Shown here piece by piece: positions 15,636 to 37,388 of a DNA stretch of 38,421 nt; positions within the stretch are counted from its first letter, which is position 1, and the number at the start of each line of letters is the position of its first letter. This DNA comes from a virus. A program made the position numbers and the translations under genes. The notes below the pieces were generated by a model. The model was not told where the DNA came from. It worked only from the letters and a program-made list of their open reading frames with translations, and did no database searches. The stretch covers positions 1 to 38,421 of IMG/VR virus record IMGVR_UViG_3300045996_001311; one strand, 5' to 3'.

Positions 15636-16016
15636 ATGCCAAAACTTACCATCCTCGCCGCCGCCCTTCCGCTCGCCTTCGCCTCCTGCGGAAACCTGAA
15701 ATACATCGTCAAAGAATATCACGGCGTGAAGGTGGTCACACACGCCGCCCCGCAGGCCACTGTCCGGATTTTCGACAAGCCAGCACAGCAAAAAATGATG
15801 GTCACTCCCACCATTGGGAAGGCAATGGGCATGGGTGCGGCGTCCGGCGCGACGTTCGGTCTGTGGACACTGGGCAGCGATCCGTTTCCGCTTCAGGGCG
15901 CAGCGCAAAACTATCTGGACGTGACGGGCCGCAGAAACCTGCGGATCACTCAAGGAAGGCTGCTGGTGAAGCCGCAGTGGGAGTTTGAATACCACCCGAC
16001 TACGCTGGCCCGCTGA
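15636..16016 (+). CDS. Predicted lipoprotein (probable moron)
   Basis: The frame encodes 126 residues from the ATG at 15636. The N-terminus MPKLTILAAALPLAFASCGN is a short lipoprotein signal peptide with a Cys at 18 as the probable lipidation site. The mature part is beta-like (YIVKEYHGVKVVTHAAPQATVRIF), with a glycine/alanine-rich GKAMGMGAASGATFG segment and an aromatic tail. It overlaps the convergent integrase stop by 17 bases. Lone lipoproteins near integrases often act in superinfection exclusion or host surface change. That role is inferred only. No promoter is clear; the gap upstream holds the G18 run. Confidence 0.68.
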   Translation: MPKLTILAAALPLAFASCGNLKYIVKEYHGVKVVTHAAPQATVRIFDKPAQQKMMVTPTIGKAMGMGAASGATFGLWTLGSDPFPLQGAAQNYLDVTGRRNLRITQGRLLVKPQWEFEYHPTTLAR

Positions 16017-17220
16017 CATCCGGAAACACCTTCGCCAGCTCGATCCCCAGCCGCTCCACCGTGCCGTGCGTATAGCGGTCGTTTACTCTGGGGTCGTCGT
16101 GGTCGGAGATGAGCATGCGGAGCTGCTTCTCTGTTCCGGCCTTTGCCAGCAGTGTATTCAGCGTGTGCCGCAGGCTGTGGAACGTCTTCAGTCGCAGATC
16201 TCGGCCCGCACCCTTCGCGCCGGGCCTCCGGCTGGTCTCCATGATCACGCCGGCCCGCTCCACAATTTGAACGAAATGCTCCGTGTTGTGCCAGCTCTCG
16301 CGCAGGGTGGGGGTCAGCCATTCGCCGGATGGTGCCAGAGTGCGCAGATGCGCCAGCAGGGGTGGGGCGAGCGGCAGCGTGATGACACGGCCCTTTTTGG
16401 CCTTTTTCTCCGGCACCAAGGCGACAGTGCCGGCGGTCAGATCAAAATCCCGCCACCGCCGCCCGGTGGCGTCTCCCAGCCGCAGCCCGCAGCAGAGTCC
16501 CAGCAGAGTGGCGGTTTTCCACTCGGTGTGGCGGGGAGGCTGGAGGGGCGGAAAGTCCGCTGGCGGGTGATCCAGAAGCCGCAGGATGGCTTGGAACTCC
16601 ACCGGCTCAAACGGCAGGCGCTTGACCCCCTGCCCTCCGGGGGCAGCTACTAGCTTGGCGGGATTGCGCGGGATGATGCCCTGAAGAAAGGCTTTTTCCA
16701 TGATGGACTGGAGCATGACGATGTGGTTCCGGGCGGTCTTCTCCGCCCGCCCGCCGGCCAGCAGGTGTCCGTGGAACTTCTGGAAATCGTCATGCCCGAG
16801 GTTCCAAAGCAGGTCATCCGCCTTCCGCCCGAGCCACTCCGTGAATATTCCGATCTGCGACCGGTAGCTGGCCTGCGTGCGCTCAGACCGGTTGCCCTCC
16901 TTCAGATATCCGGCGGAAAACTCCCGCCAGCTGCTGGAGACCTGCGGCGGTGTCACGCCGGCGGCACGCCAGATGCCCTCCAGCATCTCCACAAAGACCC
17001 GCTGGTCCGCCCGGCGGGGATTGGCCGGGGCGACCGCGAGAGCGGCTTCCTGAAGCGCGTCCGCCACCTTCTGCGCCACCGCCCTGGGTTCGGCGGACGG
17101 AATTCCGGTGGTCCGCCAGGTGCGCCGCCATCGGCCCCTGCCGGGGTTGTCCGTGTCGGCCTCCCAGACGCGGATGGAGGCGTGCCAGATATCTGTCCCT
17201 TTGGTGTTTACGGAGGCCAT
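16000..17220 (-). CDS. int: Tyrosine recombinase (phage integrase)
   Basis: This 406-residue protein has the full tyrosine recombinase catalytic set: Arg247 (in GLCCGLRLGDA), a lysine region (KKAKKGRVI, about 272-280), His348-x-x-Arg351 (FHSLRHT), His374 (ISDHDD) and Tyr383 (RYTHGT). An N-terminal core-binding domain lies at about 95-200 (FSAGYLKEGNRSERTQASYRSQIGIFTEWLG). An arm-binding-like basic region lies before it (RWRRTWRTTG). It catalyses integration and excision at an attachment site, which suggests a temperate lifestyle. The gene is leftward, beside terL, and its 3' end overlaps the convergent lipoprotein gene. The attP is not identified. Confidence 0.92.
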   Translation of the reverse strand: MASVNTKGTDIWHASIRVWEADTDNPGRGRWRRTWRTTGIPSAEPRAVAQKVADALQEAALAVAPANPRRADQRVFVEMLEGIWRAAGVTPPQVSSSWREFSAGYLKEGNRSERTQASYRSQIGIFTEWLGRKADDLLWNLGHDDFQKFHGHLLAGGRAEKTARNHIVMLQSIMEKAFLQGIIPRNPAKLVAAPGGQGVKRLPFEPVEFQAILRLLDHPPADFPPLQPPRHTEWKTATLLGLCCGLRLGDATGRRWRDFDLTAGTVALVPEKKAKKGRVITLPLAPPLLAHLRTLAPSGEWLTPTLRESWHNTEHFVQIVERAGVIMETSRRPGAKGAGRDLRLKTFHSLRHTLNTLLAKAGTEKQLRMLISDHDDPRVNDRYTHGTVERLGIELAKVFPDVSGPA

Positions 17221-17467: not shown

Positions 17468-19180
17468 TCACACAAACCAAACCATTGGCACCGGCGCGGC
17501 CTTTTCCTGCGCCATGCACCGCCCCAGCGCCATGATCCCGGCAACGATCCCGTCGATTTTCTCGCGGGAGCGCTTCTTAGACGGCTTGATGTTCCCCGCG
17601 GCGTCCAGCTCGCAGCACACGTTCCCAGCCTCCCAGCTGAGCAGCGGCGAATCCTCATGGAGCAGGTGGCCGGCTTTCACCAGCCGCTCAAATTCCGCCG
17701 TGGGGCCGGCCATGGAGACAAACCCCTGCCCGAATTCCACCATGGTGATCCCGGAATCCTGAAGTCCCTGCACGGTCTCGCCGGCAAACATGCGGTCGAA
17801 GGCGACATCGGTGACCTGATAATCCGGGCAGATGGTCTGCACCCGGGCGCGGATGAGGCCGAAATCGGTGGTGTTGCCGGGCATGGACTCAATCCATCCG
17901 GCCCGCTCCCATGCGTCATAAGGCACCCGGTGTTCCCGGCTGCGACGCGGAATGTCGTCGCCGGGGCACCAGTGCCAGGCGATTTTTGCATACTTCCGAA
18001 CGCCGAGCGCCGCTTCCACCTCCGCCGGCGGGAAAACGAGGCTGAAGGCGCTGAGGTCATTCACTTTCCCGAGGTCGATGCCTCCGTGACACTTTCGGCC
18101 CTTCAGCAGCTCCTTCAGGCCGGCCGAGTTTCCGGCTTTCCAGTCGCCCGGATCCAGCCAGCGCTCCTCACTGTTCGTCCAGATATTCAGCTGCTTGATC
18201 AGGAACGTGGTCAGCTTGCTGGGCGTGGCCTCCACAACCTTCAGCTGCTGGTGCATGTAGTCGTAATTTTTGACCGTGCCGAGGCCGGGGTTGGCCCGTT
18301 CCCAGACCGCCGGGTCCTTGTAATTCTCCTCATCGCCCTTGTCGGCCATGGCCACGAAGGCAAAAAAGGTGCTGTCCTCCAGTGTGCCGGACAGGATGTC
18401 CTCCGCCCGCTTGTGGGTCTCGTAAGCGAAACTGGCAGTATTGGTGCCGGCGGTGCTGATATCCACCATGATCGGCTGTTCCCGCGCCCCCATGCCGTCC
18501 TCCAGCGCATCCCACAGGGAACGGTCCGGCCACTGGTGGGTTTCGTCACACAGAGCGGCGTGCGGATTCAGGCCGTCCTGAGTGTCGGAATCGCCGGAGA
18601 GCGGAACCATTTTGGCGTCCGCACTCGGGAACTCCAGCAGGTTCTGTTTCTCGATGAACCGGCCCCGCACCAGCTTGTGTGAATATTTTAAAAACTTTGT
18701 GGCGTCGGACCATCCCAGCTTTGCCTGATCCTTCCGGGTGGCGGCGAAATACACCTCCGCGCCGGGCTCGCCGTCCATAGACAGGAGGTAAAGCGCCAGC
18801 GCCGCGGCGAATGCGGTTTTCCCATTTTTGCGGGGAACTCGGATCACTGCAGTTCGGAACCGGCGGAGTTTGGTTTCCCGGTGCAGCCATCCGAAGATGC
18901 TGCCGGCGATGAACAGCTGGAACGGAGCCAGTTCGAAAGGCTGGTTTTTGAACCGCCCCTTATAGTGCCGGAGCAACAGGCAGAACTGCCGGAAAATCTC
19001 CCCGCGCTTGGGAGTCCATACGAACGGAAAATCATCCGTTCCCTGCCGCTCCAGATCCCGCAGATGACGCTCGCAGGCCAGCTTGACCAGCTTCCCCGCG
19101 GGAATGTCGCCGGACAACACGGAGTGCGCGTATTCCGTGGCCGGATCGACCGCCGGGATGGGGATTTTGCGGGAGGACAT
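17468..19180 (-). CDS. terL: Terminase large subunit
   Basis: This 570-residue protein has the ATPase motifs VPRKNGKT (Walker A, 115-122) and ALCDE (Walker B, 209-213). Nuclease motifs follow: IDLGKVNDLSA with Asp369, and VAFDRMFAG. A late KIDGIVAG segment lies near residue 548. This is the HK97/P27-like Terminase_1 type. It packages and cuts DNA concatemers into proheads. The ATG at 19180 starts 1 base after the HNH gene's stop. The terminase genes point away from the capsid genes, which is unusual. Confidence 0.92.
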   Translation of the reverse strand: MSSRKIPIPAVDPATEYAHSVLSGDIPAGKLVKLACERHLRDLERQGTDDFPFVWTPKRGEIFRQFCLLLRHYKGRFKNQPFELAPFQLFIAGSIFGWLHRETKLRRFRTAVIRVPRKNGKTAFAAALALYLLSMDGEPGAEVYFAATRKDQAKLGWSDATKFLKYSHKLVRGRFIEKQNLLEFPSADAKMVPLSGDSDTQDGLNPHAALCDETHQWPDRSLWDALEDGMGAREQPIMVDISTAGTNTASFAYETHKRAEDILSGTLEDSTFFAFVAMADKGDEENYKDPAVWERANPGLGTVKNYDYMHQQLKVVEATPSKLTTFLIKQLNIWTNSEERWLDPGDWKAGNSAGLKELLKGRKCHGGIDLGKVNDLSAFSLVFPPAEVEAALGVRKYAKIAWHWCPGDDIPRRSREHRVPYDAWERAGWIESMPGNTTDFGLIRARVQTICPDYQVTDVAFDRMFAGETVQGLQDSGITMVEFGQGFVSMAGPTAEFERLVKAGHLLHEDSPLLSWEAGNVCCELDAAGNIKPSKKRSREKIDGIVAGIMALGRCMAQEKAAPVPMVWFV

Positions 19181-19181
19181 A

Positions 19182-19532
19182 TCAGGCGCCGGCCTGCCGC
19201 TCCTCCCGGCTGAAAACCGCATGGCACCGCGGGCACAGGGCCATCAGATTGGAGTGGACGTAGGCAAGGTGCGGAGCGGTCTGGATGCTCTGGCGGTGAT
19301 GGACTTCCGTGGCCGGCGGCGGGTATTCTGTGTGCCAGCCGTGCGGGTTTTCGCAGATCGGATTGCGGCTGATGTAGGTGAGCCGGACCTTTTTCCAGAA
19401 GCTGGAGCCGCGCACGTCCGCTGCCGTTTTCAGGCCGATGGTCATCCGGCGCGTCTGGCGGTCGTAAACCTCCCGCGTGTGGGATTTGGCCTCGATGCGC
19501 GGGAGGCGGTGCTTTGGCGGGCGGGTGGCCAT
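19182..19532 (-). CDS. HNH endonuclease (packaging-associated)
   Basis: This 116-residue protein shows FWKKVRLTYISRNPICENPHGW...ATEVHHRQSIQTAPHLAYVHSNLMALCPRCHAVF: a zinc-binding CxxC pair, the HH of the HNH motif and the LCPRCH end. Small HNH proteins next to TerS/TerL are known to stimulate terminase cleavage in HK97-like phages. It lies between the two terminase subunits, as in that group. Its start overlaps the terS stop by 1 base. Confidence 0.85.
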   Translation of the reverse strand: MATRPPKHRLPRIEAKSHTREVYDRQTRRMTIGLKTAADVRGSSFWKKVRLTYISRNPICENPHGWHTEYPPPATEVHHRQSIQTAPHLAYVHSNLMALCPRCHAVFSREERQAGA

Positions 19533-26603: not shown

Positions 26604-29033
26604 ATGGCCTCCACCACTCCAGCGACCCGCATTTTAAACGGCTACCCTGTCCGCAATGGCGATGACACGGACCCGGGTCCAACCGCTTATGCCAATGAGC
26701 TGCTGGGCGGGCATCATCAGGTGGATACGCTCGCGCAGAGGGACGCGATTCCCGCGCAGCGTCGCAAGATCGGCATGACCTGCCGGGTGGCTGAAACCGG
26801 AATCACCTATGTCCTTGAGGGCGGAATCACGAATGAATACTGGGTGGATGTGCTCACTCCGGCCAATGCGCGGATAGACGATCTGGATGACGGTTTGACA
26901 ACCAAGGCCTCCCGCGATCTGGCTGACGCCGTTTCGGAAGCCGTGGGAACGCGCCTGATTGGAACGGGCGCGGTAACGCTGGAAAAGTTGGACACCGCCC
27001 TCCGGTCCAGTATCGGCAGCGGTCTGGACGCCACTCTTTTGCAGGGCTATTGGGACGCCGCGACGAATACGCCCACGATTCCTGCCGCCAGCGGAAACAA
27101 CGGCAAGTGGTATTATGTCAATGTGGCCGGCGTCGCGACCGGGAATGCGCCGGGGACCTATCTGGTCGGGGACCGCATTGTGAGCAATGGCACCTCATGG
27201 TTGCAGCTGAAGGTCCCGGCCACAATCGTCGCCGATGGCTCCCTGAGCAAGAAGGCGATGACTGACAACATTGTCAGGGATGATGCGACGCTCGCCAATG
27301 GCGCGGTGATCGTGAAGTGCTGGGCGACCGAGGATGGAACGGAGAGTATCGCCACCCTGGATGACCGCGGCAAGTTTTGGCCCGATCCAGAGGCCAGCAG
27401 CAAGGCCCGGCTGGATGCCGTGGAGCCGAAAACGGCAAAGCTTGGAGAGGGGCTGCTTCCACTGGATTGGGTGGAGGGCACCGAAATTTGGGAGGAGGGC
27501 GCGTGGATTCTTGACGAGGGGGAGCACGTCCAGCTGATCCGCGCCCGGCTGACAGAGGATGGGCTGGAGGTTATCGAGGGCGTGACCGCAGACGGCACGC
27601 GCTATCCGCTGATTTCCGGTGGGGGAGGCGGTGGAGGTGGAGGATACACCCCGGCTGACTTGGTGGTCTTTGGGCAGGATGACGGCGGTGTCGGAATCAG
27701 CGACGCCGACGGCGAGCGCTCAATCATCACGGAAACAGCCCCATGGAAAGACCTGCATCCAACGGATTCGGAAAACGTGTGGCAGGGCCGTTCATCGCGA
27801 CTTGGCGGCGGTTACGGTCTGCATAAAGTTTACATCAATTCCGGCGCAACGATCCCGGCAAAGAAGACCATCCTCTACGGAATCGGCGGAAATGGGCAAA
27901 GCCTTATGGGGGGCGGTTCCGGCGTTCCCCTTTTGACATCGATAGCTCTCCATCCCGCCAATAACCTCATGTTCAACGGAGGGCTTGGAGTCGGGACAAA
28001 CAGCGCCACGATCAATCCGGCGAATATGGCCTCGCTGGTGGCGATGTATCAGACACTCTCAAGCGGGAACAGCTATGAAACGCCGCTGCCAGGGTTTATG
28101 AACCGGCTGCAATCCAAACTCTACGCCGCCACGGGGGGCAGGGTGCGCCTGGTGTGCGACAACCGCGCCCACGGGGGCAAGGCGTATGTGGACATCAAGC
28201 AGGGGACCACGCCCTACAACAATGGACTCTACGCCGCAGGCAGGGCCAAAGCCATCGCGGCGGCGAACGGCTGGGACTACATTTACCTCGGCTCCCTGAT
28301 GATTCACGGAGAGCAGGATACCGTAAATCTGACATCCACGGCCACCTATGATGGATACCTTAAAGAAATGGTGGCAAATGAGTCCGCCGATTACAAGGCG
28401 ATCAGCGGTCAGACCGGCGACACCATGTTGTTTGTGGACGGGTGCCACAGCTTTTCCGCCTACGGTAAAACCACTCCGCTGATTGCACTGGCTCAGCTGT
28501 CCGCTGCCCTGACGCATCCCAGGATCAGGATGGTCTGCCCGAAATACATTTTCCCCTACGTGGACGGGATCCACATGACGGGGTATGGTTACCGCCGCCT
28601 TGGCGAGTATCATGCGGAGGCTCAGTATGCCGTTTATTTCGGCGGCGGGGTCTGGAATGCATTCGCGCCTTATGAGTTGGGCCAGACCTCCGACACGGTC
28701 TGGGCAAAGTTCCGGACTCCGCTGGGCCACGCTCTCCGTTTTGACACCACCCTCGTTTCCGATCCGACCGCAGGGCGCTACGGATTCGAGTGCGTGGGAG
28801 CTTCGCTTTCCGGCACCCCGGTCATTGACGGTGACCGCGTGGTCATCTCCAAGACCGGCACCGCCACACAGTTGAGATACGCCTACACCGGCATTTCCGG
28901 GCAGTGGGCCGGGCCGACGACCGGTGCCCGCGGATGCCTGCGGGACAATTCCCCGGCGGTTTCCGATTTCGACGACACGCCGCTTTACAACTACTGCAAC
29001 ACGTTCTCGGAGACCGTGCCGCCCGCCCCTTAA
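26604..29033 (+). CDS. Tail fibre with SGNH/sialate-esterase-like domain
   Basis: This 809-residue protein has an N-terminal fibre segment, with LTTKASRDLADAVSEAVGTR suggesting a coiled stalk. A glycine linker of nine consecutive Gly follows near residue 345. The esterase-like domain carries GGNGQSLMGG with Ser433 (nucleophile), HGEQD (568-572) and DGIHMTGYGYRRLG (Asp654, His657). These match block I and the catalytic D-x-x-H of SGNH/sialate O-acetylesterase-type enzymes. A C-terminal beta domain follows. It may remove acetyl groups from host glycans during adsorption. The enzyme family is clear in outline; substrate is unknown. Confidence 0.78.
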   Translation: MASTTPATRILNGYPVRNGDDTDPGPTAYANELLGGHHQVDTLAQRDAIPAQRRKIGMTCRVAETGITYVLEGGITNEYWVDVLTPANARIDDLDDGLTTKASRDLADAVSEAVGTRLIGTGAVTLEKLDTALRSSIGSGLDATLLQGYWDAATNTPTIPAASGNNGKWYYVNVAGVATGNAPGTYLVGDRIVSNGTSWLQLKVPATIVADGSLSKKAMTDNIVRDDATLANGAVIVKCWATEDGTESIATLDDRGKFWPDPEASSKARLDAVEPKTAKLGEGLLPLDWVEGTEIWEEGAWILDEGEHVQLIRARLTEDGLEVIEGVTADGTRYPLISGGGGGGGGGYTPADLVVFGQDDGGVGISDADGERSIITETAPWKDLHPTDSENVWQGRSSRLGGGYGLHKVYINSGATIPAKKTILYGIGGNGQSLMGGGSGVPLLTSIALHPANNLMFNGGLGVGTNSATINPANMASLVAMYQTLSSGNSYETPLPGFMNRLQSKLYAATGGRVRLVCDNRAHGGKAYVDIKQGTTPYNNGLYAAGRAKAIAAANGWDYIYLGSLMIHGEQDTVNLTSTATYDGYLKEMVANESADYKAISGQTGDTMLFVDGCHSFSAYGKTTPLIALAQLSAALTHPRIRMVCPKYIFPYVDGIHMTGYGYRRLGEYHAEAQYAVYFGGGVWNAFAPYELGQTSDTVWAKFRTPLGHALRFDTTLVSDPTAGRYGFECVGASLSGTPVIDGDRVVISKTGTATQLRYAYTGISGQWAGPTTGARGCLRDNSPAVSDFDDTPLYNYCNTFSETVPPAP

Positions 29034-29042
29034 TCAAATATC

Positions 29043-29936
29043 ATGCAATCCGTTATTGAAAAAATGATTGGCGTGCCGGCTGACGGCACCCGGATTCTGA
29101 TTGTGCCTCCACCGGCTCCGGACCCATGGACTCCGGCCCTTTTGGCCAACCTCCGTGCATGGTATTCCGCCAGCACGCTGGCGCTGTCCGCCGGGGCATC
29201 CATCCCGTCCATCGCCAGCGGCGGCGGAATCACCAACGTTGCCGCGCAGGGAACAGCGGGAGCCCGCCCCCTGTTTGGCTATCTGGACAGCGATCCGGAT
29301 CTGCCTTACATGGATTTCGACGGGGTCAATGATGCGCTGATTTTGGCCGACAGGACCATCAGCAATGGAGGCAGTTGCATTGTGGTTGCTGCCTTGATGA
29401 GGTTTGATGCATTCGCCACGGACACCGGACCCAAGGCGCTCCTGACCATTCCGACAACAGGGGCGTCCAGCACACGGTTTAATTTCGGCCTGGAGGGCAT
29501 CGCCGGGGCAAGCAAGCGCTGGGCGTTTTCCGGCAAAAACACGGATGCCGGCGGCACGGTCAACACTGTATCAACAGCGGTTGCTGATACCAATCTCCAT
29601 ATCGTTATCGCTCAGTTCAATCGTGGAGTGAATCCGGCGCGGGCTAAAATCTGGATCGACGGGACTTCCGTCTATGACGCTAATTCAGCCATTACCGGCG
29701 GCACCTGGGACGCCACGGATTGCGGGTCGGTGGCCGATGGCGCCTGTATCGGCAACAAGTTCAGTTATGCCACAAACCAAGGCATGGACGCCAAGCTGCT
29801 GGAGTTCGTGCTCCTGGACGCCGTCATCAGCGATGCAAACCGCCAACTGATCGAAGGCTGGGCGGCGTGGGCCGGGAAGATTCAGGGCAACCTCCCATCC
29901 GACCATCCTTACAAAGCCGCCGCGCCCACCATCTAA
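29043..29936 (+). CDS. Tail protein with LamG/concanavalin-like lectin domain
   Basis: This 297-residue protein shows a lectin-type pattern: LLANLRAWYSASTLALSAGASIPSIAS, MDFDGVNDALILAD, HIVIAQFNRG...KIWIDGTSVYDA, and the ending RQLIEGWAAWAGKIQGNLPSDHPYKAAAP. This end is common in phage lectin-bearing fibres. It probably binds surface glycans and works with the adjacent esterase fibre. The start ATG at 29043 is 9 bases after the esterase stop. Confidence 0.72.
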   Translation: MQSVIEKMIGVPADGTRILIVPPPAPDPWTPALLANLRAWYSASTLALSAGASIPSIASGGGITNVAAQGTAGARPLFGYLDSDPDLPYMDFDGVNDALILADRTISNGGSCIVVAALMRFDAFATDTGPKALLTIPTTGASSTRFNFGLEGIAGASKRWAFSGKNTDAGGTVNTVSTAVADTNLHIVIAQFNRGVNPARAKIWIDGTSVYDANSAITGGTWDATDCGSVADGACIGNKFSYATNQGMDAKLLEFVLLDAVISDANRQLIEGWAAWAGKIQGNLPSDHPYKAAAPTI

Positions 29937-30306: not shown

Positions 30307-30759
30307 ATGCCAGCCGTAAACCACAGCGCCAAACTTGCAGCCCGCCTCGTGGCGGTGCTGGCCGCATCCGCGCCGCTCTCGGCGCTGGTCGGGAGCCGCG
30401 TCTTTGGCGGCCTGGCTCCGGAGCGCTCGCCGCTGCCCCGCATCATTTTCCACGAGATTTCCACGGTCCGCGACCACCAGCACGACAGCGCCACCGCGAC
30501 GGACGCCGGGGTCGATGAGACGCTGATGCAGTTTGATATTGAGGCTGGCACTCCCAGCGCTGCACGGGCCGTCTCCGATGCCCTGGCGGAGACGCTGGAC
30601 GGCGCGGCATTCCCCGGCCCTCCGGCCGATTTGCAGGCCTGCTTCCGCGATGCCGGCGAGTTTGGGCAGCCGCTGGACTATGACACCGGAAACGGCGTGG
30701 CCGCCGCGCACCGGTATTCCGTGACCTACCGCATTCTTTGGAGGGATTCCGCATCATGA
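30307..30759 (+). CDS. Tail terminator/completion protein (DUF3168-like)
   Basis: This 150-residue protein starts KLAARLVAVLAASAPLSALVGSRVFGGLAPERSPLPRIIFHEISTVRDHQHD and ends HRYSVTYRILWRD, matching DUF3168-type tail completion proteins. It caps the tail tube and controls length. It overlaps the tail-tube gene start (ATGA) and follows the fibre cassette. Confidence 0.8.
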   Translation: MPAVNHSAKLAARLVAVLAASAPLSALVGSRVFGGLAPERSPLPRIIFHEISTVRDHQHDSATATDAGVDETLMQFDIEAGTPSAARAVSDALAETLDGAAFPGPPADLQACFRDAGEFGQPLDYDTGNGVAAAHRYSVTYRILWRDSAS

Positions 30760-31559
30760 GTAAAAAAGCAGCCTACGGCACTCAGCTCCGCTACACCGAC
30801 CCCGACGACTCCAGTCTGGTGCGCGTCCACTACGTTGCGGACATCACCGGGCCCGGGATCAATGTGGAGACCATCGACGTGACCACGCACGATTCGCCCG
30901 ATGCCTTTTCAGAGTTCGTGGCCGGCATGGCAGATGGGGCGGATGTGAGCTTTGATCTGATTTTTGACGCCGGCCCCGCCGGTCACCAGCGGCTGCTGGA
31001 TCTGATGGATGACCGGATCACGATGACCTGGAGCCTGCTCCTGCCGCGCCCGGAAACTCAGGTGCTGCTGAGTCCGGAGTTTCAGAACTCCAGCGATTGG
31101 GTCGGCGGCGGCGCGTGGGATACGACTGGCGGGCAGGCCTCCATCTTTGCCGGCACCCCCACTGAAACCGATGCCCTGTCGCAGTTTGTGGAGGATCTGA
31201 CCACCGGTGAAATCTACCGGCTGGAGATTGTTTTCGAGGGTGAGTGCACCGGCGGGCTGGAGGTCAGCCATGACGGCTCGCCGATCGGCACCTTTGATCC
31301 CACCGGCAAATCCCGGCAGATTCTGGAATGGATTCCGGAACAGACTGAGGGCGACCTGGCCTTCACGGCCACGGACGGGCCGGCCTCCATGACAGTCCGG
31401 AGCATCCGCCTCTATGGTCTCAATAATCCCGATGAGGAGCGGTTTGATTTCACGGGCATGCTTACCGCCGTCGGCGTGATCGCGCCGGTCAAGGATGCTC
31501 TGAAGGCATCGGCCACCATCAAGATTTCCGGGAAACCGGAGTTCACCCCCGGCACTTAA
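30756..31559 (+). CDS. Major tail-tube protein A with inserted jelly-roll-like domain
   Basis: This 267-residue protein is a tail-tube type at both ends: AAYGTQLRYTDPDDSS...HYVADITGPGINVETIDVTTHDSPDAFSEFVAGMADGADVSFDLIFD (5-70), and ERFDFTGMLTAVGVIAPVKDALKASATIKISGKPEF (228-263). Between about residues 100 and 228 an extra domain is inserted (LLSPEFQNSSDWVGGGAWDTTGG...TTGEIYRLEIVFEGECTGGLEVSHDG...TVRSIRLYGL) that looks like a carbohydrate-binding galactose-binding-like fold. The next gene is a plain version without the insert. Confidence 0.82.
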   Translation: MSKKAAYGTQLRYTDPDDSSLVRVHYVADITGPGINVETIDVTTHDSPDAFSEFVAGMADGADVSFDLIFDAGPAGHQRLLDLMDDRITMTWSLLLPRPETQVLLSPEFQNSSDWVGGGAWDTTGGQASIFAGTPTETDALSQFVEDLTTGEIYRLEIVFEGECTGGLEVSHDGSPIGTFDPTGKSRQILEWIPEQTEGDLAFTATDGPASMTVRSIRLYGLNNPDEERFDFTGMLTAVGVIAPVKDALKASATIKISGKPEFTPGT

Positions 31560-31578
31560 TTTCACACCCTATCACACT

Positions 31579-32016
31579 ATGAAAAAAGCCGCATACGGCA
31601 GCAAGCTTGCCATTCAGATCGAGCAGACCGGATCCTACACGGATCTTGCCAGCATCGGGGATATCTCCGGGCCGAGCATCAGCGCAGAGACCATCGATGT
31701 CACCACCCATGACTCGGCTGATGCCTTCGCGGAGTTCGTGGCCGGCATGCTGGACGGGGGCGAGGTCAGCACCGACTTGGTTTTTGAATCCGGCCCCAGC
31801 GGGCACGGGACGCTTTACAATGCGGTCGCGGACCGGCAGCTGCACAACTTTTACCTCAAACTGCCCGGATGGGTGAGCACCGGGGCTGGCGGTTACTTTG
31901 CCTTCGCGGGCCTGCTGACGGCCTTCAACGTCACCGCCCCGGTGAAGGATAAGCTGGGCGCGGCTGTGACCATCAAGGTCTCAGGCAAGCCGGTTTTCCA
32001 TCCGTTCACGTCCTGA
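31579..32016 (+). CDS. Major tail-tube protein B (plain paralogue)
   Basis: This 145-residue protein is colinear with both ends of tail-tube A: AAYGSKLAIQIEQTGSYTDLASIGDISGPSISAETIDVTTHDSADAFAEFVAGMLDGG, and FAFAGLLTAFNVTAPVKDKLGAAVTIKVSGKPVF. It lacks the inserted domain. It probably polymerises with A into the tail tube, giving an undecorated background subunit. Its gene is 20 bases after the A gene. Confidence 0.82.
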   Translation: MKKAAYGSKLAIQIEQTGSYTDLASIGDISGPSISAETIDVTTHDSADAFAEFVAGMLDGGEVSTDLVFESGPSGHGTLYNAVADRQLHNFYLKLPGWVSTGAGGYFAFAGLLTAFNVTAPVKDKLGAAVTIKVSGKPVFHPFTS

Positions 32017-32045: not shown

Positions 32046-32351
32046 ATGCCTGAACTTACCCCACGCTTCACCAACAAAGCCCTCCGCATCCTGAAGGAGA
32101 CGCATGATATCGACCTCCTGAAGATTCAGGGAACTGAAATCATGGATCCCGATTTTCGGCTGAAGGTCACGCAGGCCGGCTGCGCTCCGCTTCCGCCGGA
32201 GACCATCTCCCGGCTGGTGGACGACCTCACGCCTGGTGAGCACATCGACATGCTGACCGCCTCGCTCACCCGCGACCTTGCGCCAAAATCCAACAGGGAG
32301 GCGCAGGCCAAGGCGGCAGCCGGTCCTAAAAGCGGGGAGGCGGAGGCCTGA
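32046..32351 (+). CDS. Tail assembly chaperone, first part
   Basis: This 101-residue protein begins MPELTPRFTNKALRILKETH and includes AGCAPLPPETISRLVDDLTPGEHIDMLTASLTRD. It lies after the tail tubes and before the tape measure, where lambda G and other chaperones lie. A second frame overlaps its 3' end (32278-32712). The AAAA run at 32328-32331 followed by GCGGGGAGG could support a +1 (or -2) shift joining the two products. Confidence 0.7.
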   Translation: MPELTPRFTNKALRILKETHDIDLLKIQGTEIMDPDFRLKVTQAGCAPLPPETISRLVDDLTPGEHIDMLTASLTRDLAPKSNREAQAKAAAGPKSGEAEA

Positions 32352-32712
32352 TCATGAGCGCGGGCAGTCTCATGCGTTTTGGGCCGGCTGCGTGGCGCGC
32401 GCTCAGCGGCTGGCTGGGCTGCCGGAAGCCCACTTCTGGGAGCTCACTCCCGCTGAGGTGGACGCGATCCTCATGGAGGCTCTGGAGGAGATCCGCGTTG
32501 CCGATTGGAAGGCCGCCTATCATGCGGCGCGGATCGAGGCCGCGCTCTACAACTGCCACCGGGATTCCAAAAAGCACCCCGAGCCATTCCGCGCGGAGGA
32601 CTTCCTTCCGCAGCTTTTCCCGGAGCCAGAAATCGAACCGCCTCCGCCTGATGTCGTGGCTGACAAAGCCCGCGGCATCATGAAGCTCGTTTCCAAAATC
32701 AATCACCAATAA
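32278..32712 (+). CDS. Tail assembly chaperone, second part (probable frameshift product)
   Basis: This frame lies at +1 relative to the first chaperone gene and has no good start codon. The listed start is a TTG within the preceding gene. Its product contains FWAGCVARAQRLAGLPEAHFWELTPAEVDAILMEALEEIRVADW, the W...FW-LTP-E pattern of second chaperone parts. It is likely made by recoding in the AAAA run (32328-32331) or by a late internal start. An overlapping third frame (ATG at 32354) reads coherently only for a few residues and is considered a shadow. Confidence 0.6.
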   Translation: MRQNPTGRRRPRRQPVLKAGRRRPDHERGQSHAFWAGCVARAQRLAGLPEAHFWELTPAEVDAILMEALEEIRVADWKAAYHAARIEAALYNCHRDSKKHPEPFRAEDFLPQLFPEPEIEPPPPDVVADKARGIMKLVSKINHQ

Positions 32713-33236
32713 TGGCCCGACCATCCGCCACAGGATTCCAGCAGATCCTCATCAACATTCAGATCCTTGAACGGAAGCTGGGGCGCGGAGCTATGCGCGT
32801 TGCCCTCACCAAAGCCTCCCGGCTGGTGGTGGCGGATGCGAAACAGCGCACGCCCGTCCGGACTGGAACGCTCAAAAAATCACTCCGCGCCAAGGTGAAA
32901 ACCTACGTGAACCGCGGGACTGTGGTGGCCATCATCGGGCCGTCCCGCAGCGCCATGGCGCAGGCGGACTTTGGCGACGGCAAGGGCATCCAGACGCTCC
33001 GGCCCGCCAAGTATTCCCACTTGGTGGAGTTTGGAACGGCATCCAAAGGCGTCCGATATAATCCGGGCGCAGTGCAGGAGCCGGGCAATCCTCCAAAGCC
33101 ATTCCTCCGCCCGGCATTGGAGTCCACCAAGGGTGCAGTCCGCGCCAAATACTCCGCCGAGCTGGCTCCCGCCATCCAGCAGGAAGCCGCCAAAATCCGC
33201 CGCGCCAGTCAGCGCGCCGCCTCCCGAAATCGATGA
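32712..33236 (+). CDS. HK97 gp10-like neck protein
   Basis: This 174-residue protein has the HK97_gp10 pattern KQRTPVRTGTLKKSLR...PAKYSHLVEFGTASKG...PPKPFLRPALES. It usually forms the head-tail neck and is normally coded before the tail-terminator gene. Here it sits between the chaperone and tape measure, three to four genes downstream of its usual slot. It overlaps the tape-measure start as ATGA. Confidence 0.83.
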   Translation: MARPSATGFQQILINIQILERKLGRGAMRVALTKASRLVVADAKQRTPVRTGTLKKSLRAKVKTYVNRGTVVAIIGPSRSAMAQADFGDGKGIQTLRPAKYSHLVEFGTASKGVRYNPGAVQEPGNPPKPFLRPALESTKGAVRAKYSAELAPAIQQEAAKIRRASQRAASRNR

Positions 33237-35719
33237 ACTCCATTGGTGATCTATACATCCAGCTGCACGCCACCGCGCGCGGCCTGGCCGAGGATATCCG
33301 CAACGACCTGCGGCGGGCGCAGGGCGGGCTGACGGCGCAGGCGGTGGCCATGGGCACGCTCATTGCCGACGGGATCAAGCGCGGCCTGTCGATCACGGGG
33401 AACTTTTTCAGCGAACAGCTGAAAAACGCCAGCAAGCTGTCGGCGGAGATGGAGACGACCACCACGCTTTTCGGGGTGCTGCTGGGATCCGCCGAGAAGG
33501 CCAAACAGGCTATCGCGGAAATCCGCATCATTGACCAGCAATCCCCGTTGAGCTTTGGGCAGCTGACCCAGAGCGGTCAGTTGTTGCTGGCGATGGGCGA
33601 GAGCGCGGAGAAACTGACAACAGACCTGCGGCTGCTGGGAACGGTGGCGCTCGGCAATTCGGAGCGCATGGGGCGGCTGACTTACGCTTTCGGCCAGGTG
33701 CAATCCCTTGGCCGGCTGGCGGGGACGGAGCTGCGGCAGCTGACGGAGCTGGGATTTAATCCTTTGGAATACATTTCCAAGCGGACCGGTGAGACCATGG
33801 CCCAGCTCACCCATCGCATGAGTGAGGGCAAAATCTCCTTCGGTGAAATGCGCCTGGCAATGATCGATGCGACCATGGCCGGCGGGCGGTTCAACGGGGC
33901 GTTGGAGGAGATGGAGAAGACCTTTCAGGGGAAGGTTGCCAAGCTAACCGGGGCCATTGATAAGCTTATGGTGAGCATCGGCAACGGCCTGAATGCCTCC
34001 ATAAAGCCGATCATTGAAGACATGATTGCCGATCTGGATAAGCTGATGCCGGCGGCCAAAGGCATCGGCGAGGGCCTCGGGCGCTGGATCGGCGCGGTCT
34101 ATCAGTGGGCGGGCGGATTCAAAGGCATCATCAATACCGTCATAGACATCGGCATCAAGATTTCCGACTGGCTGCCGCGGCTGTCCGCCGTCTGGGATCT
34201 GCTGGCGGCTGGCTGGAAAGGTTTGATGAATGGGGCCGAGGTGGCGGGTGCCGCCTTTATCGGCTCGGTCATTATCGCCAAAAACGGAGCCGTCGCAATT
34301 TTTGAGTGGTTCAAGGTGAAGTGGCAGGAGGTGAAAAAATGGGGACAGGAAGCGGCCACGGGCATCAAGACGTGGTTCATCGAAATGATCAACTCCGTGC
34401 TTCGGGCGTTGAATGCCCTGCCGGAGGCGCTGGGGGCGATCGTTGACAGTCTGCCGGTGCCGGCATGGATGAAAGCGGGCTCCCGTCTTGTGGGGCAGAA
34501 TGTCCGCAAGAGCGTGTCCAACGTGGTCAAGGCCGCCGCCGGCCCCGGCGGGTATGGCGAGCCGGAGCTGCCGGGCGGCGTGGCCATGATCGATGACAGC
34601 CTGATCCCCATGATCAAGCTGCCAGTGCAGCCGGATATTCAGGTCGATCAGACGGCGCTGGAGGATGCGACAGAAAACGTCCGACAGGCCGCCAAGGGCA
34701 TGGCCGATGCCGCGCGGGAGCCGATTCAGAATATTGTCGATGCATCCAAAGAGGCGACACTCGCCGTCGGGGATATTTTCAAAGACCCCTCCGAAAACCC
34801 CATGGTGAAAAGCATGGAGGACATGCGGGATTCTCTGAATCAGACCGTGGACGCCAGCGCCGATGCCTCATCGGCGGTGAAGGTGGATTGGAACGCGGTC
34901 CGGGATCAGCAGATCGTAGCCGCCAAAGATGCGACCGCCGCGCTGGCCTCCATTGGTGAGGAGCAGGAAAAAGAACGCAAGAAGGCAGTGGAGGTAACCG
35001 CCAAGGAACTGAAAAGCGAGCGGGCCGAATTCCTCCGCGACTTCGAGAGCCAGTATGAGGATATCCAGCGGATCAACGAGCAGACTTTCGAGAGCTTCCG
35101 CTCGATGAACCGGAGCGCGACCTCCGACATGGTTTCATCGTGGATCACCGGCACGGGCAAAATCTCCGACATCGTCAGCCAGTGGGCGGATTCCATGATC
35201 CGCCAGTTTGTCGAGGTGATGCTCTTCGGGAACAAAATGGCCGGCGGCACCATGTCCGGCCTGCTGGGCTCAATGGGCGGATTGTTCGGCGGCAAAGGCA
35301 CGGCCACCGGCCTTTCCGCCGGGGCTGCAGCCGCCAATACTTATGCCGGAGCCGGCGGGGGAGGCGGCTGGATCAGCGCCTTGGGCTCTTTGGTCGGTGG
35401 TTTTTTTGCCGACGGCGGCCGCCCGCCCATGGGCAAGGTTTCTGTGGTCGGTGAGCGCGGACCAGAACTGTTCGTTCCAGACTCCGCCGGCACCGTGATT
35501 CCGAATAATCGCGCCGCCTCATACTTGGCCGCTCCCGCAGCTGCCGGCGGAGGTGGCGGTGAGGCTCCCATGATTTTCCATTTCACCCAAAACTTCAGCT
35601 CGGGCGTCACTCAGCTGGAGCTGGCCGGGGCGATGGATCAAATGCAGGACGCCACGCGCGGCGCGGTGCTGGAGGCCGTGCAGCGTGGCGGGGCTTACCG
35701 GAAAGGCATGCAGACTTAA
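33233..35719 (+). CDS. Tape measure protein
   Basis: This 828-residue protein has the usual organisation: N-terminal helical coil (GLAEDIRNDLRRAQGG), ETTTTLFGVLLGSAEKAKQAIAEIR, then ELTELGFNPLEYISKRTG, a hydrophobic middle (about 255-460), coiled helices (570-620) and a glycine-rich end (GGGGGWISALGSLVGGFFADGGRPPMGKVSVVGERGPELFVPDSAGTVIPNN, about 706-759). It sets tail length and may open a membrane channel. Length and end motifs are typical of siphoviruses. Confidence 0.9.
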   Translation: MNSIGDLYIQLHATARGLAEDIRNDLRRAQGGLTAQAVAMGTLIADGIKRGLSITGNFFSEQLKNASKLSAEMETTTTLFGVLLGSAEKAKQAIAEIRIIDQQSPLSFGQLTQSGQLLLAMGESAEKLTTDLRLLGTVALGNSERMGRLTYAFGQVQSLGRLAGTELRQLTELGFNPLEYISKRTGETMAQLTHRMSEGKISFGEMRLAMIDATMAGGRFNGALEEMEKTFQGKVAKLTGAIDKLMVSIGNGLNASIKPIIEDMIADLDKLMPAAKGIGEGLGRWIGAVYQWAGGFKGIINTVIDIGIKISDWLPRLSAVWDLLAAGWKGLMNGAEVAGAAFIGSVIIAKNGAVAIFEWFKVKWQEVKKWGQEAATGIKTWFIEMINSVLRALNALPEALGAIVDSLPVPAWMKAGSRLVGQNVRKSVSNVVKAAAGPGGYGEPELPGGVAMIDDSLIPMIKLPVQPDIQVDQTALEDATENVRQAAKGMADAAREPIQNIVDASKEATLAVGDIFKDPSENPMVKSMEDMRDSLNQTVDASADASSAVKVDWNAVRDQQIVAAKDATAALASIGEEQEKERKKAVEVTAKELKSERAEFLRDFESQYEDIQRINEQTFESFRSMNRSATSDMVSSWITGTGKISDIVSQWADSMIRQFVEVMLFGNKMAGGTMSGLLGSMGGLFGGKGTATGLSAGAAAANTYAGAGGGGGWISALGSLVGGFFADGGRPPMGKVSVVGERGPELFVPDSAGTVIPNNRAASYLAAPAAAGGGGGEAPMIFHFTQNFSSGVTQLELAGAMDQMQDATRGAVLEAVQRGGAYRKGMQT

Positions 35720-35723
35720 TTTT

Positions 35724-37388
35724 ATGGCCAAAAGAATTCGCATCGAATGTGAGCAGCGGAACCGCTTCGGTGGCCGGCTCATCGACCAGTACACCGGCCA
35801 GCCGGCTTTCCTGCATTTGGGGGAGGACGTGATTTTTGAGTTGGGTGTTTTTGTGAATGGCCGAATGCTGAACCGCACGGAGATCACCGTGATGGACATC
35901 GAGCTTTTCACGCTCGCCGGCGATCCCATCACGACACTGCATTTGGAAACCTCCAACATGAGCAGCAATGTCACAGCTGCGGGCTGGAGAAATGGGAATG
36001 CCGCACTGGCCCGTTTGCTGATCAACTCCGGCAATACCATTACCCTGCCGGCCGGATTTTTCATCTTCCAGGTCAAGGCCACCTTTGAGGGGCTGTCCTC
36101 CATCGTGGCCAGCGGACAGATTGAGGGCGTGCAGCTGGCAACGTTGGTGCCGGTGCCGTGGGACCCGCCGAATCCGGCCGAATATTACACCAAGGATGAA
36201 GTCGATGCCGCCTTTGACCCGGCGGGCAGTGGCGCTGCCGGCTTGGATCTGGCGGAGGACATCCGGGATTATCTCAATTTCACACCCGGAGACGATCCGG
36301 CAAAGCTGGTGCTGTTTGAGGCGCAGAGCCTGACAGCGGAGGAAAAGCAGGTGGCGCGTGAAAACCTCGGCGCGGCGGTGGCCGGCGGAGCACTGACCAT
36401 CATTGGAGAGAGCAGCGGCACCGGCAACACCAATGCCATTCCCGACGGCTCCCGCGCCAGCGTGATCACCGTCACGCCCTCCGGCAACACCGTGATAGAG
36501 CTGCGGGCTCCGGTGCTGTCAGTGGGGCAGCGGGCGCTCCTGCGGATCCAGCAGGGCTTCCAGGTCAAATGGACCAGCGACTACACGCACCCCGCCAATG
36601 CCATCACCCGGGGCGCATCCTCCGGAGGGTTCGCAAAAGTCAGCTGGCACCCGGATCTGAATGAGGGGTATGACGTTTTCGAGCTTCTAAACGACGGCGC
36701 CACCACTCACGTCTCACGATTCCGCCAGCCGGCGGTGCCGGTGGCCGCTCCGGACTGGGCGCACATCGATCCACAGGTTACCTCCTCCGGCGGTGTCTAT
36801 ACCGGGATCTATGACCTGCACGGCCACGCAAACAGTTCAGTGATCGGCGCGCCGGGACCAACCACGATGGCCGGCAGCGCATTCCCGGCCTTCGGGTATG
36901 ACGGGGTGGACGATGCCACCGGCTGGACCTGCGATGCGTTCACCGCGGCTGCCGGCCTGAGCATCGCTATGGTGTTCACGGCCACGGCCACCACCGGGCA
37001 GAAGATCCTTTTTTACTCGACCGCCTACGGTATTCAGATCGTCGCCGATTCGGACGGAATCCGCCTTCAGGCCAAGGATGCCGCCAGCGGCACCGGTCTC
37101 CTGATTGCAACATCCTACAGCGCGGCTCCAGTCGCGTTCGTGGTCGTCATCCGGGCCGGGGCCGCCGGGGCCTTTGTCCTGACCACGGACGTTGGCGGCG
37201 GCGGGCAGACGGGATCATTCACGCCAGCCGCCGGAGCCAGCGGCGCCTGCACTCTGGGCGGCGTCTCCGGCCAGACTCGTTACCTCGCCTGCAAAATCGC
37301 CCGGTGCCAGGTGTGGCAGCTGGCGCTCAGCGGCGACCAGGCGCGGGCCGCGCTCGATGCCCTGACAGAGCATTACAAACTCGGCTGA
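35724..37388 (+). CDS. Tail fibre with trimer-type and LamG-like segments
   Basis: This 554-residue protein starts MAKRIRIECEQRNRFGG and has a beta-rich N-terminus. Fibre stalk markers follow: EYYTKDEVDAAFDPAGS (about 153-170) and SLTAEEKQVARENLGAAVAG, both known in phage tail fibres. The C-terminal third (YDGVDDATGWTCDAFTAAAGLSIAMVFTATA...ALDALTEHYKLG) is a second LamG-like lectin unit. It probably contributes to receptor recognition at the tail tip. The start is 5 bases after the tape-measure stop; no Shine-Dalgarno is seen. Confidence 0.7.
   Translation: MAKRIRIECEQRNRFGGRLIDQYTGQPAFLHLGEDVIFELGVFVNGRMLNRTEITVMDIELFTLAGDPITTLHLETSNMSSNVTAAGWRNGNAALARLLINSGNTITLPAGFFIFQVKATFEGLSSIVASGQIEGVQLATLVPVPWDPPNPAEYYTKDEVDAAFDPAGSGAAGLDLAEDIRDYLNFTPGDDPAKLVLFEAQSLTAEEKQVARENLGAAVAGGALTIIGESSGTGNTNAIPDGSRASVITVTPSGNTVIELRAPVLSVGQRALLRIQQGFQVKWTSDYTHPANAITRGASSGGFAKVSWHPDLNEGYDVFELLNDGATTHVSRFRQPAVPVAAPDWAHIDPQVTSSGGVYTGIYDLHGHANSSVIGAPGPTTMAGSAFPAFGYDGVDDATGWTCDAFTAAAGLSIAMVFTATATTGQKILFYSTAYGIQIVADSDGIRLQAKDAASGTGLLIATSYSAAPVAFVVVIRAGAAGAFVLTTDVGGGGQTGSFTPAAGASGACTLGGVSGQTRYLACKIARCQVWQLALSGDQARAALDALTEHYKLG

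Follow-up and report, generated by a model that had tools for sequence, protein, structure and literature searches.

A tandem pair of plain and decorated tail-tube genes, recurrent in its tube family, suggests a mixed tail tube in an uncultivated siphophage

The window, that is, the whole stretch of DNA analysed here, is a complete IMG/VR virus record of 38,421 bases. It carries the gene set of a temperate siphophage: integrase, terminase, portal, protease, capsid, adaptor, distal tail protein and J-like tip protein. The genes for the terminase large subunit and the integrase (17471-19222 and 16003-17220, both on the minus strand) run in the opposite direction from those for the portal and other structural proteins, and the gene for the J-like tip protein is found at the start of the record (909-2705); the record may therefore be a permuted, nearly complete genome. 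In the tail region, a tail completion/terminator gene is followed by two tube genes, called A and B here, and then by the tail assembly chaperone and the tape measure genes. A and B are arranged head to tail and co-directionally with 19 bases between them, and the start codon of A (ATG at 30756) overlaps the stop of the preceding gene. The features of this region, all on the plus strand, are as follows.

30307-30759, plus strand: tail completion/terminator protein (Pfam PF11367, E 9e-10; PHROG 347 tail terminator, E 0.0011)
30756-31559, plus strand: gene A, decorated tail tube protein, 267 aa (PF16460, PHROG 158, AlphaFold models)
30756-31046, plus strand: A residues 1-97, part 1 of the tube domain, with beta1-beta2, the hinge loop beta2-beta3, beta3, alpha1 and beta4 (52% identity to B; DSSP of the model)
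31047-31442, plus strand: A residues ~98-229, insert, predicted CBM-like (galactose-binding-like) jelly roll in loop beta4-beta5 (fold matches; homologous insert in related contigs)
31443-31556, plus strand: A residues ~230-267, part 2 of the tube domain, with beta5, loop L2 and beta6 (62% identity to the C-terminus of B)
31579-32016, plus strand: gene B, plain tail tube protein, 145 aa (PF16461, PHROG 158)
32046-32351, plus strand: zero-frame product of the tail assembly chaperone, assigned by its place between the tube and tape measure genes and by the conserved +1 overlap (no Pfam or PHROG match)
32278-32712, plus strand: overlapping +1-frame extension of the chaperone, minor tail protein T-like (Pfam PF06223, E 7e-6)
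33233-35719, plus strand: tape measure protein, 828 aa (Pfam PF20155, E 5e-19)

The two chaperone frames overlap in the +1 frame in the window (32278-32351) and in all members of its clade that were looked at (L004, L005, L007, L008, L009, L011 and L013). Common to these members is a motif, AAA_AGC_G, located directly 5' of the zero-frame stop (CCT AAA AGC GGG in the window), which is a candidate site for a +1 slip on AAA-A; the lambda G/GT frameshift is usually -1. A large tail-fibre-like gene with a weak match to SASA esterase (26604-29033) and a virion structural gene (29043-29936) are flanked by the head-tail adaptor on one side and the tail terminator on the other, an odd location for fibre genes. 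The interval between the tape measure and the distal tail protein encodes a 567-aa protein (35685-37388) with no PHROG match and a weakly laminin-G-like C-terminal region.

Profile searches and alignment indicate that A and B are tail-tube paralogues of the lambda type (PF16460/PF16461). A matches PF16460 with 48 bits (curated cut-off 28.4) and also PF16461, while B matches PF16461 with 41.6 bits (curated cut-off 26.1) and also PF16460 and PF06199. Both are major tail proteins in PHROGs (PHROG 158), and a profile of B with its family members matches lambda-type tube chains (E 3e-8). The cores of A and B align with 55% identity and a single large gap, with 52% identity over query residues 3-97 and 62% over the last 37; the extra block in A spans residues ~98-228, about 130 aa. 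The original prediction had placed two tube paralogues at 30756-32016, the first keeping both ends of the second with about 128 residues between them, and both its coordinates and its count of extra residues were essentially right.

A was modelled twice with AlphaFold, with an 8-sequence alignment (mean pLDDT 72.5) and with a 34-sequence alignment (72.1, five models within 3 points). The two models agree that a jelly roll splits the tube beta-sandwich, and the jelly roll has the higher confidence (blocks of 70-92). Residues 4-267 of the second model align with a lambda-type tail tube (9mfe_A; Z 11.5, 117 aligned residues, rmsd 3.9), and residues 100-222 align with the carbohydrate-binding modules CBM36 (1w0n) and CBM35 (2w1w) in VIA-align (Z 13.1, 109-113 residues, rmsd 2.2-2.3); the jelly roll of the earlier model, made from the smaller alignment, gave Z 12.8. 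Thus, the insert, located between strands E89-95 and E229-242, replaces the beta4-beta5 turn. Prediction therefore agrees with the earlier suspicion of a jelly roll, and places the insert in a separate domain, aligned apart from the tube fold, rather than within the tube wall. In SPP1 and 80alpha, loop beta4-beta5 sticks out of the tube and makes no intermolecular contact (PMC8718954), and by analogy the jelly roll would be exposed on the exterior of the tube. The beta2-beta3 hinge loop, which makes ring-to-ring contacts in other tubes, has low confidence in the A monomer model; this would be natural if the loop moves freely until the tube assembles.

By fold, the insert is predicted to be a jelly roll like that of carbohydrate-binding modules (galactose-binding-like fold), although a shared fold shows no function. 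CBM-like jelly rolls are the top fold matches; Ig-like folds are not listed among the matches, which does not exclude an Ig-like fold. Matches to Eph receptor, Cry and Vip proteins are generic jelly-roll matches without functional meaning. No CBM family scored above the cut-off when the insert was compared with Pfam, nothing significant for the jelly roll was found in Pfam and PHROGs, and the insert profile retrieved no CBM and nothing relevant from the PDB. Since these profiles leave the insert unnamed, it is CBM-like by fold only. The insert of L005 searched alone against named phages also gave no match. An origin from an intein or intron is not supported, as the insert is in frame, forms a complete predicted jelly roll, is under selection and matches no intein family.

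The A/B pair is conserved. It is complete in 11 IMG/VR contigs related to the window (L004-L014, some of them near-duplicates), and two further relatives (L065 and L066) end within A. These relatives were found with B and with alignments as queries; A as a single query against viral contigs retrieved no close relatives. Two scans of genome contigs yielded no relative, and so no host is named. A homologous insert is located at the same site in 10 of the 11 related contigs, and L004 has both genes with an A that lacks the insert; the AU test did not reject a history in which the insert was gained once and L004 never lost it (p 0.22). The tree groups the A copies and the B copies in a clade each (99/94 and 100/98), so that the duplication predates the window group. 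Identity between the window and its relatives is 66-72% for B, 51-61% for the A core and 25-28% for the insert, and dN/dS among close relatives is 0.01-0.13, 0-0.28 and 0.04-0.29, respectively. These ratios indicate purifying selection on all three. It follows that both genes are functional, with B more constrained and the insert diverging fastest, and a decayed duplicate was ruled out by dN/dS. Conservation of the same pair in related contigs and the low dN/dS also mean that the arrangement is not due to chance.

Gene A of the window has a strong Shine-Dalgarno site (GGAGGG, within 30726-30755), and such sites are absent from most structural genes in the window clade. Shine-Dalgarno strength was discarded as a gauge of the expression ratio because the homologous A genes and most structural genes of the clade have no site. 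All other types of tube-gene pair described below have strong sites, and the host of the window may thus belong to a low-Shine-Dalgarno lineage.

We also looked for similar pairs elsewhere, as the original prediction had proposed. IMG/VR was sampled with patterns from the tube family of the window, among lineages that are not independent, and 25 distinct tandem pairs and 73 loci with a single tube gene of the same family were found. In 24 of the 25 pairs, one copy and only one carries a large internal insert; neither copy has one in L004, and no pair has one in both copies. Among the single-copy loci, 54 of the 73 were complete (at least 1 kb on both sides), and none of these 54 tube genes has an internal insert. 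An apparent internal gain in the single-copy L037 was really a C-terminal extension. Fisher's test of pairs versus singles gave 2e-19 before correction for relatedness, a value that overstates the association because the sampling was family-based and the lineages are related; it is fairer to count four separate origins. Pairing of one plain with one decorated copy is not universal among tube families, as JBD30 and YSD1 have an internal domain in their sole described tube protein. The inserts are of three types at three sites, and the decorated gene can be the first or the second.

Window type: first gene, insert of about 130 aa, loop beta4-beta5
L028 type (10 contigs): second gene, insert of about 75 aa, loop after beta1
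L092: second gene, insert of about 80 aa, beta2-beta3 loop
L094/L096/L123: first gene, insert of about 110 aa, after beta1

The duplications are placed apart on the tree: the L092 pair (100/97), L094/L096/L123 (100/99), the core group of the L028 type (100/99) and the window clade. This suggests at least four duplications, apparently independent of one another. In PHROGs, the inserts of L028 and L092 resemble domains that occur in tail fibres and in other proteins of the virion (PHROG 9370 tail fibre, 7765 and 4711). The loci with these smaller inserts are L028 (3000-3644), L070 (4729-5370) and L092 (3977-4639). The L092 insert lies in the beta2-beta3 loop, and the same loop is required for ring stacking in other phages. 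The gap between the two tube genes is 169-288 bases in L028-type pairs versus 5-41 bases in the other types.

Do the two proteins meet in one tube? In lineages that split after the duplication, the two copies within one genome have more residues in common than copies paired across genomes. Same-genome pairing ranked 1 of 24 in the window clade both for the total and for the hinge loop, and 1 of 720 for the total and 4 of 720 for the hinge in the L028 clade. For example, SAIREF is found in both copies of L028, L031 and L032, NATREF in both copies of L082 and L084, and NATKEF in both copies of L095. This sharing may come from gene conversion or from co-selection at the ring-to-ring contact, and either would fit subunits that meet in one tube. 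Between A and B of the window, identity is 65% in L2+beta6 and 74% in the hinge loop, versus 39-44% in beta1-2 and beta3-alpha1-beta4, the likeness of the hinge being partly generic because no other part is as well conserved across the family (55-68%, also in comparison with single-copy proteins). In L004, the L2 regions of A and B are only 35% alike. The counterparts of the hinge loop and L2+beta6 meet in the stacking of JBD30 rings (PMC11445458). The insert might influence how rings stack, because loop L1 of JBD30, at about the same place, adjoins the inter-ring contact (PMC11445458). Mixed polymerisation, as originally predicted, is thus supported indirectly, by the inter-ring loop residues that same-genome copies have in common and by the occurrence of decorated copies only beside plain ones in this family.

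We propose, with a probability of about 0.6, that this phage builds a mixed tail tube made mostly of B, in which decorated A subunits are diluted by plain B and their sugar-binding-like jelly rolls, on the exterior, make weak multivalent contact with glycans. This reading is based on the paralogy, the conservation of the pair, the predicted folds, the insertion site, the purifying selection and the recurrence of such pairs; from these we infer co-assembly in one tube, outward exposure, the dilution ratio and glycan binding. A and B would both be ring-forming tail tube subunits of the same siphophage, B probably being the main builder. A would enter B rings or form scattered rings and display its jelly roll outside, so that the shaft would carry a limited number of jelly rolls. 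These may touch surface glycans weakly and multivalently before the tip finds its receptor, and the virion would stay on the cell and move over it. A role in glycan contact was earlier proposed for the FN3 domain of SPP1 (PMC8718954), and host binding was measured for the TpeX module of 936 phages (PMC6669499). Two further modules of the same genome, each scoring below the Pfam cut-off, weakly fit the sugar-directed reading: a laminin-G-like domain and a tail fibre that resembles SASA esterase.

Three other arrangements were considered. T4 gp48 and gp54 are tube paralogues. Their end rings are the hub of tube polymerisation (PMC8718954), and A, which is encoded first and adjoins the terminator, might likewise form one special ring at a tube end, beside the distal tail protein or the terminator, with the jelly roll on that ring only. 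If A formed an end ring, one of its faces should have changed, whereas the hinge (74%) and L2+beta6 (65%) of A in the window are both near B; this likeness in the ring-contact parts argues mildly against a single end ring. Gene order does not follow such a role either, because the decorated gene comes first in the window clade and L094/L096/L123 but second in the L028 type and L092. We consider an end ring unlikely. It is quite improbable that the jelly roll braces the tube instead of serving as an adhesin, clasping neighbouring subunits and stiffening or spacing the tube as domain2 of YSD1 might suggest. That domain has the same insertion site, or one close by, and wraps around the neighbouring subunit (PMC8718954, PMC9022992), but a brace would be expected in all subunits, and here the phage retains a plain copy, which is also the better conserved of the two. 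Furthermore, the insert is the fastest-diverging part (25-28% identity), is absent from L004 and has CBM-like proteins as its best fold matches. Least probable of all, in our view, is a surface switch in which A and B are used one at a time, for example by host or condition, each in a homopolymer tube. Selection on both genes and the existence of an insertless A in L004 would suit it, but the 19 bases between the co-directional genes leave little room for a switch, and the same-genome co-variation of the hinge points to contact between the products.

Several known systems resemble the proposed mixed tube in part. SPP1 makes two major tail proteins, gp17.1 and gp17.1*, by a +1 frameshift and mixes them 3:1 in one tube, with a decoration that is dispensable for viability (PMC8718954, PMC9022992). 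As in SPP1, there are plain and decorated versions of one tube protein, whose presence in one tube is known for SPP1 and proposed here; unlike SPP1, where one gene is frameshifted and an FN3 domain sits at the C-terminus, the window encodes each version in a complete gene, with a start and a stop to itself, and the predicted CBM-like jelly roll lies inside one of them. The MTP-TpeX protein of lactococcal 936 phages likewise places a carbohydrate-binding module on some tube subunits. It binds host cells there (PMC6669499), whereas binding is predicted here, and it is a BppA-type module added by frameshift to the C-terminus of a single gene.

The original prediction took an internal insertion in one of two tube proteins to look new, but internal insertions in tube proteins as such are already known from JBD30 gp44 (PMC11445458) and YSD1_22 (PMC8718954, PMC9022992). 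In both, as in A, a domain is inserted around alpha1/beta4/beta5, and there it lies outside the tube (PMC11445458, PMC8718954, PMC9022992); the YSD1 site is between strands 4 and 5 (PMC9022992). Unlike the window, these phages have one described tube gene and every subunit is decorated; their domain is Ig-like or a beta-sandwich, that of A a predicted CBM-like jelly roll. Two tube genes per phage are also found in Gordonia cluster DJ and Microbacterium cluster EL phages, and such actinophage pairs are known without an explanation (PMC12859696, PMC11080557). The DJ genes are related (43% identity), have another gene between them and differ by a 51-aa C-terminal extension (PMC12859696, PMC11080557); unlike in the window, no internal insert is reported in DJ or EL. 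Searches of the named phages with A, B and two other decorated copies found no record with more than a single tube gene of this family.

Thus, there are separate precedents for internal insertions (JBD30, YSD1), for mixed tubes (SPP1, 936), for sugar modules on tubes (936) and for paired tail genes (Gordonia DJ). In the open-access literature, which leaves most subscription journals outside, no report was found of a tandem tube pair with an internal insert in one member, or of its recurrence. A stronger proposal, which we hold tentatively and at slightly less than even odds, is that the tube is an obligate heteropolymer in a group of uncultivated siphophages, where the decorated subunit is tolerated only when diluted by its plain paralogue, and that such pairs arose on at least four occasions, the adhesin-like inserts being unrelated and placed in three different loops. 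Tail tubes are usually treated as homopolymers, with frameshift mixing of the SPP1 type as the exception. If the mixed tube is true, gene duplication would be a repeated route to mixed, sparsely decorated tubes, tuning the number of adhesins per tail shaft. It would then become testable why tube decorations exist, how many insert-bearing subunits a ring can accommodate and whether decorated rings are random or ordered, and the matched inter-ring loops of the two copies would give direct predictions for the mixed contacts.
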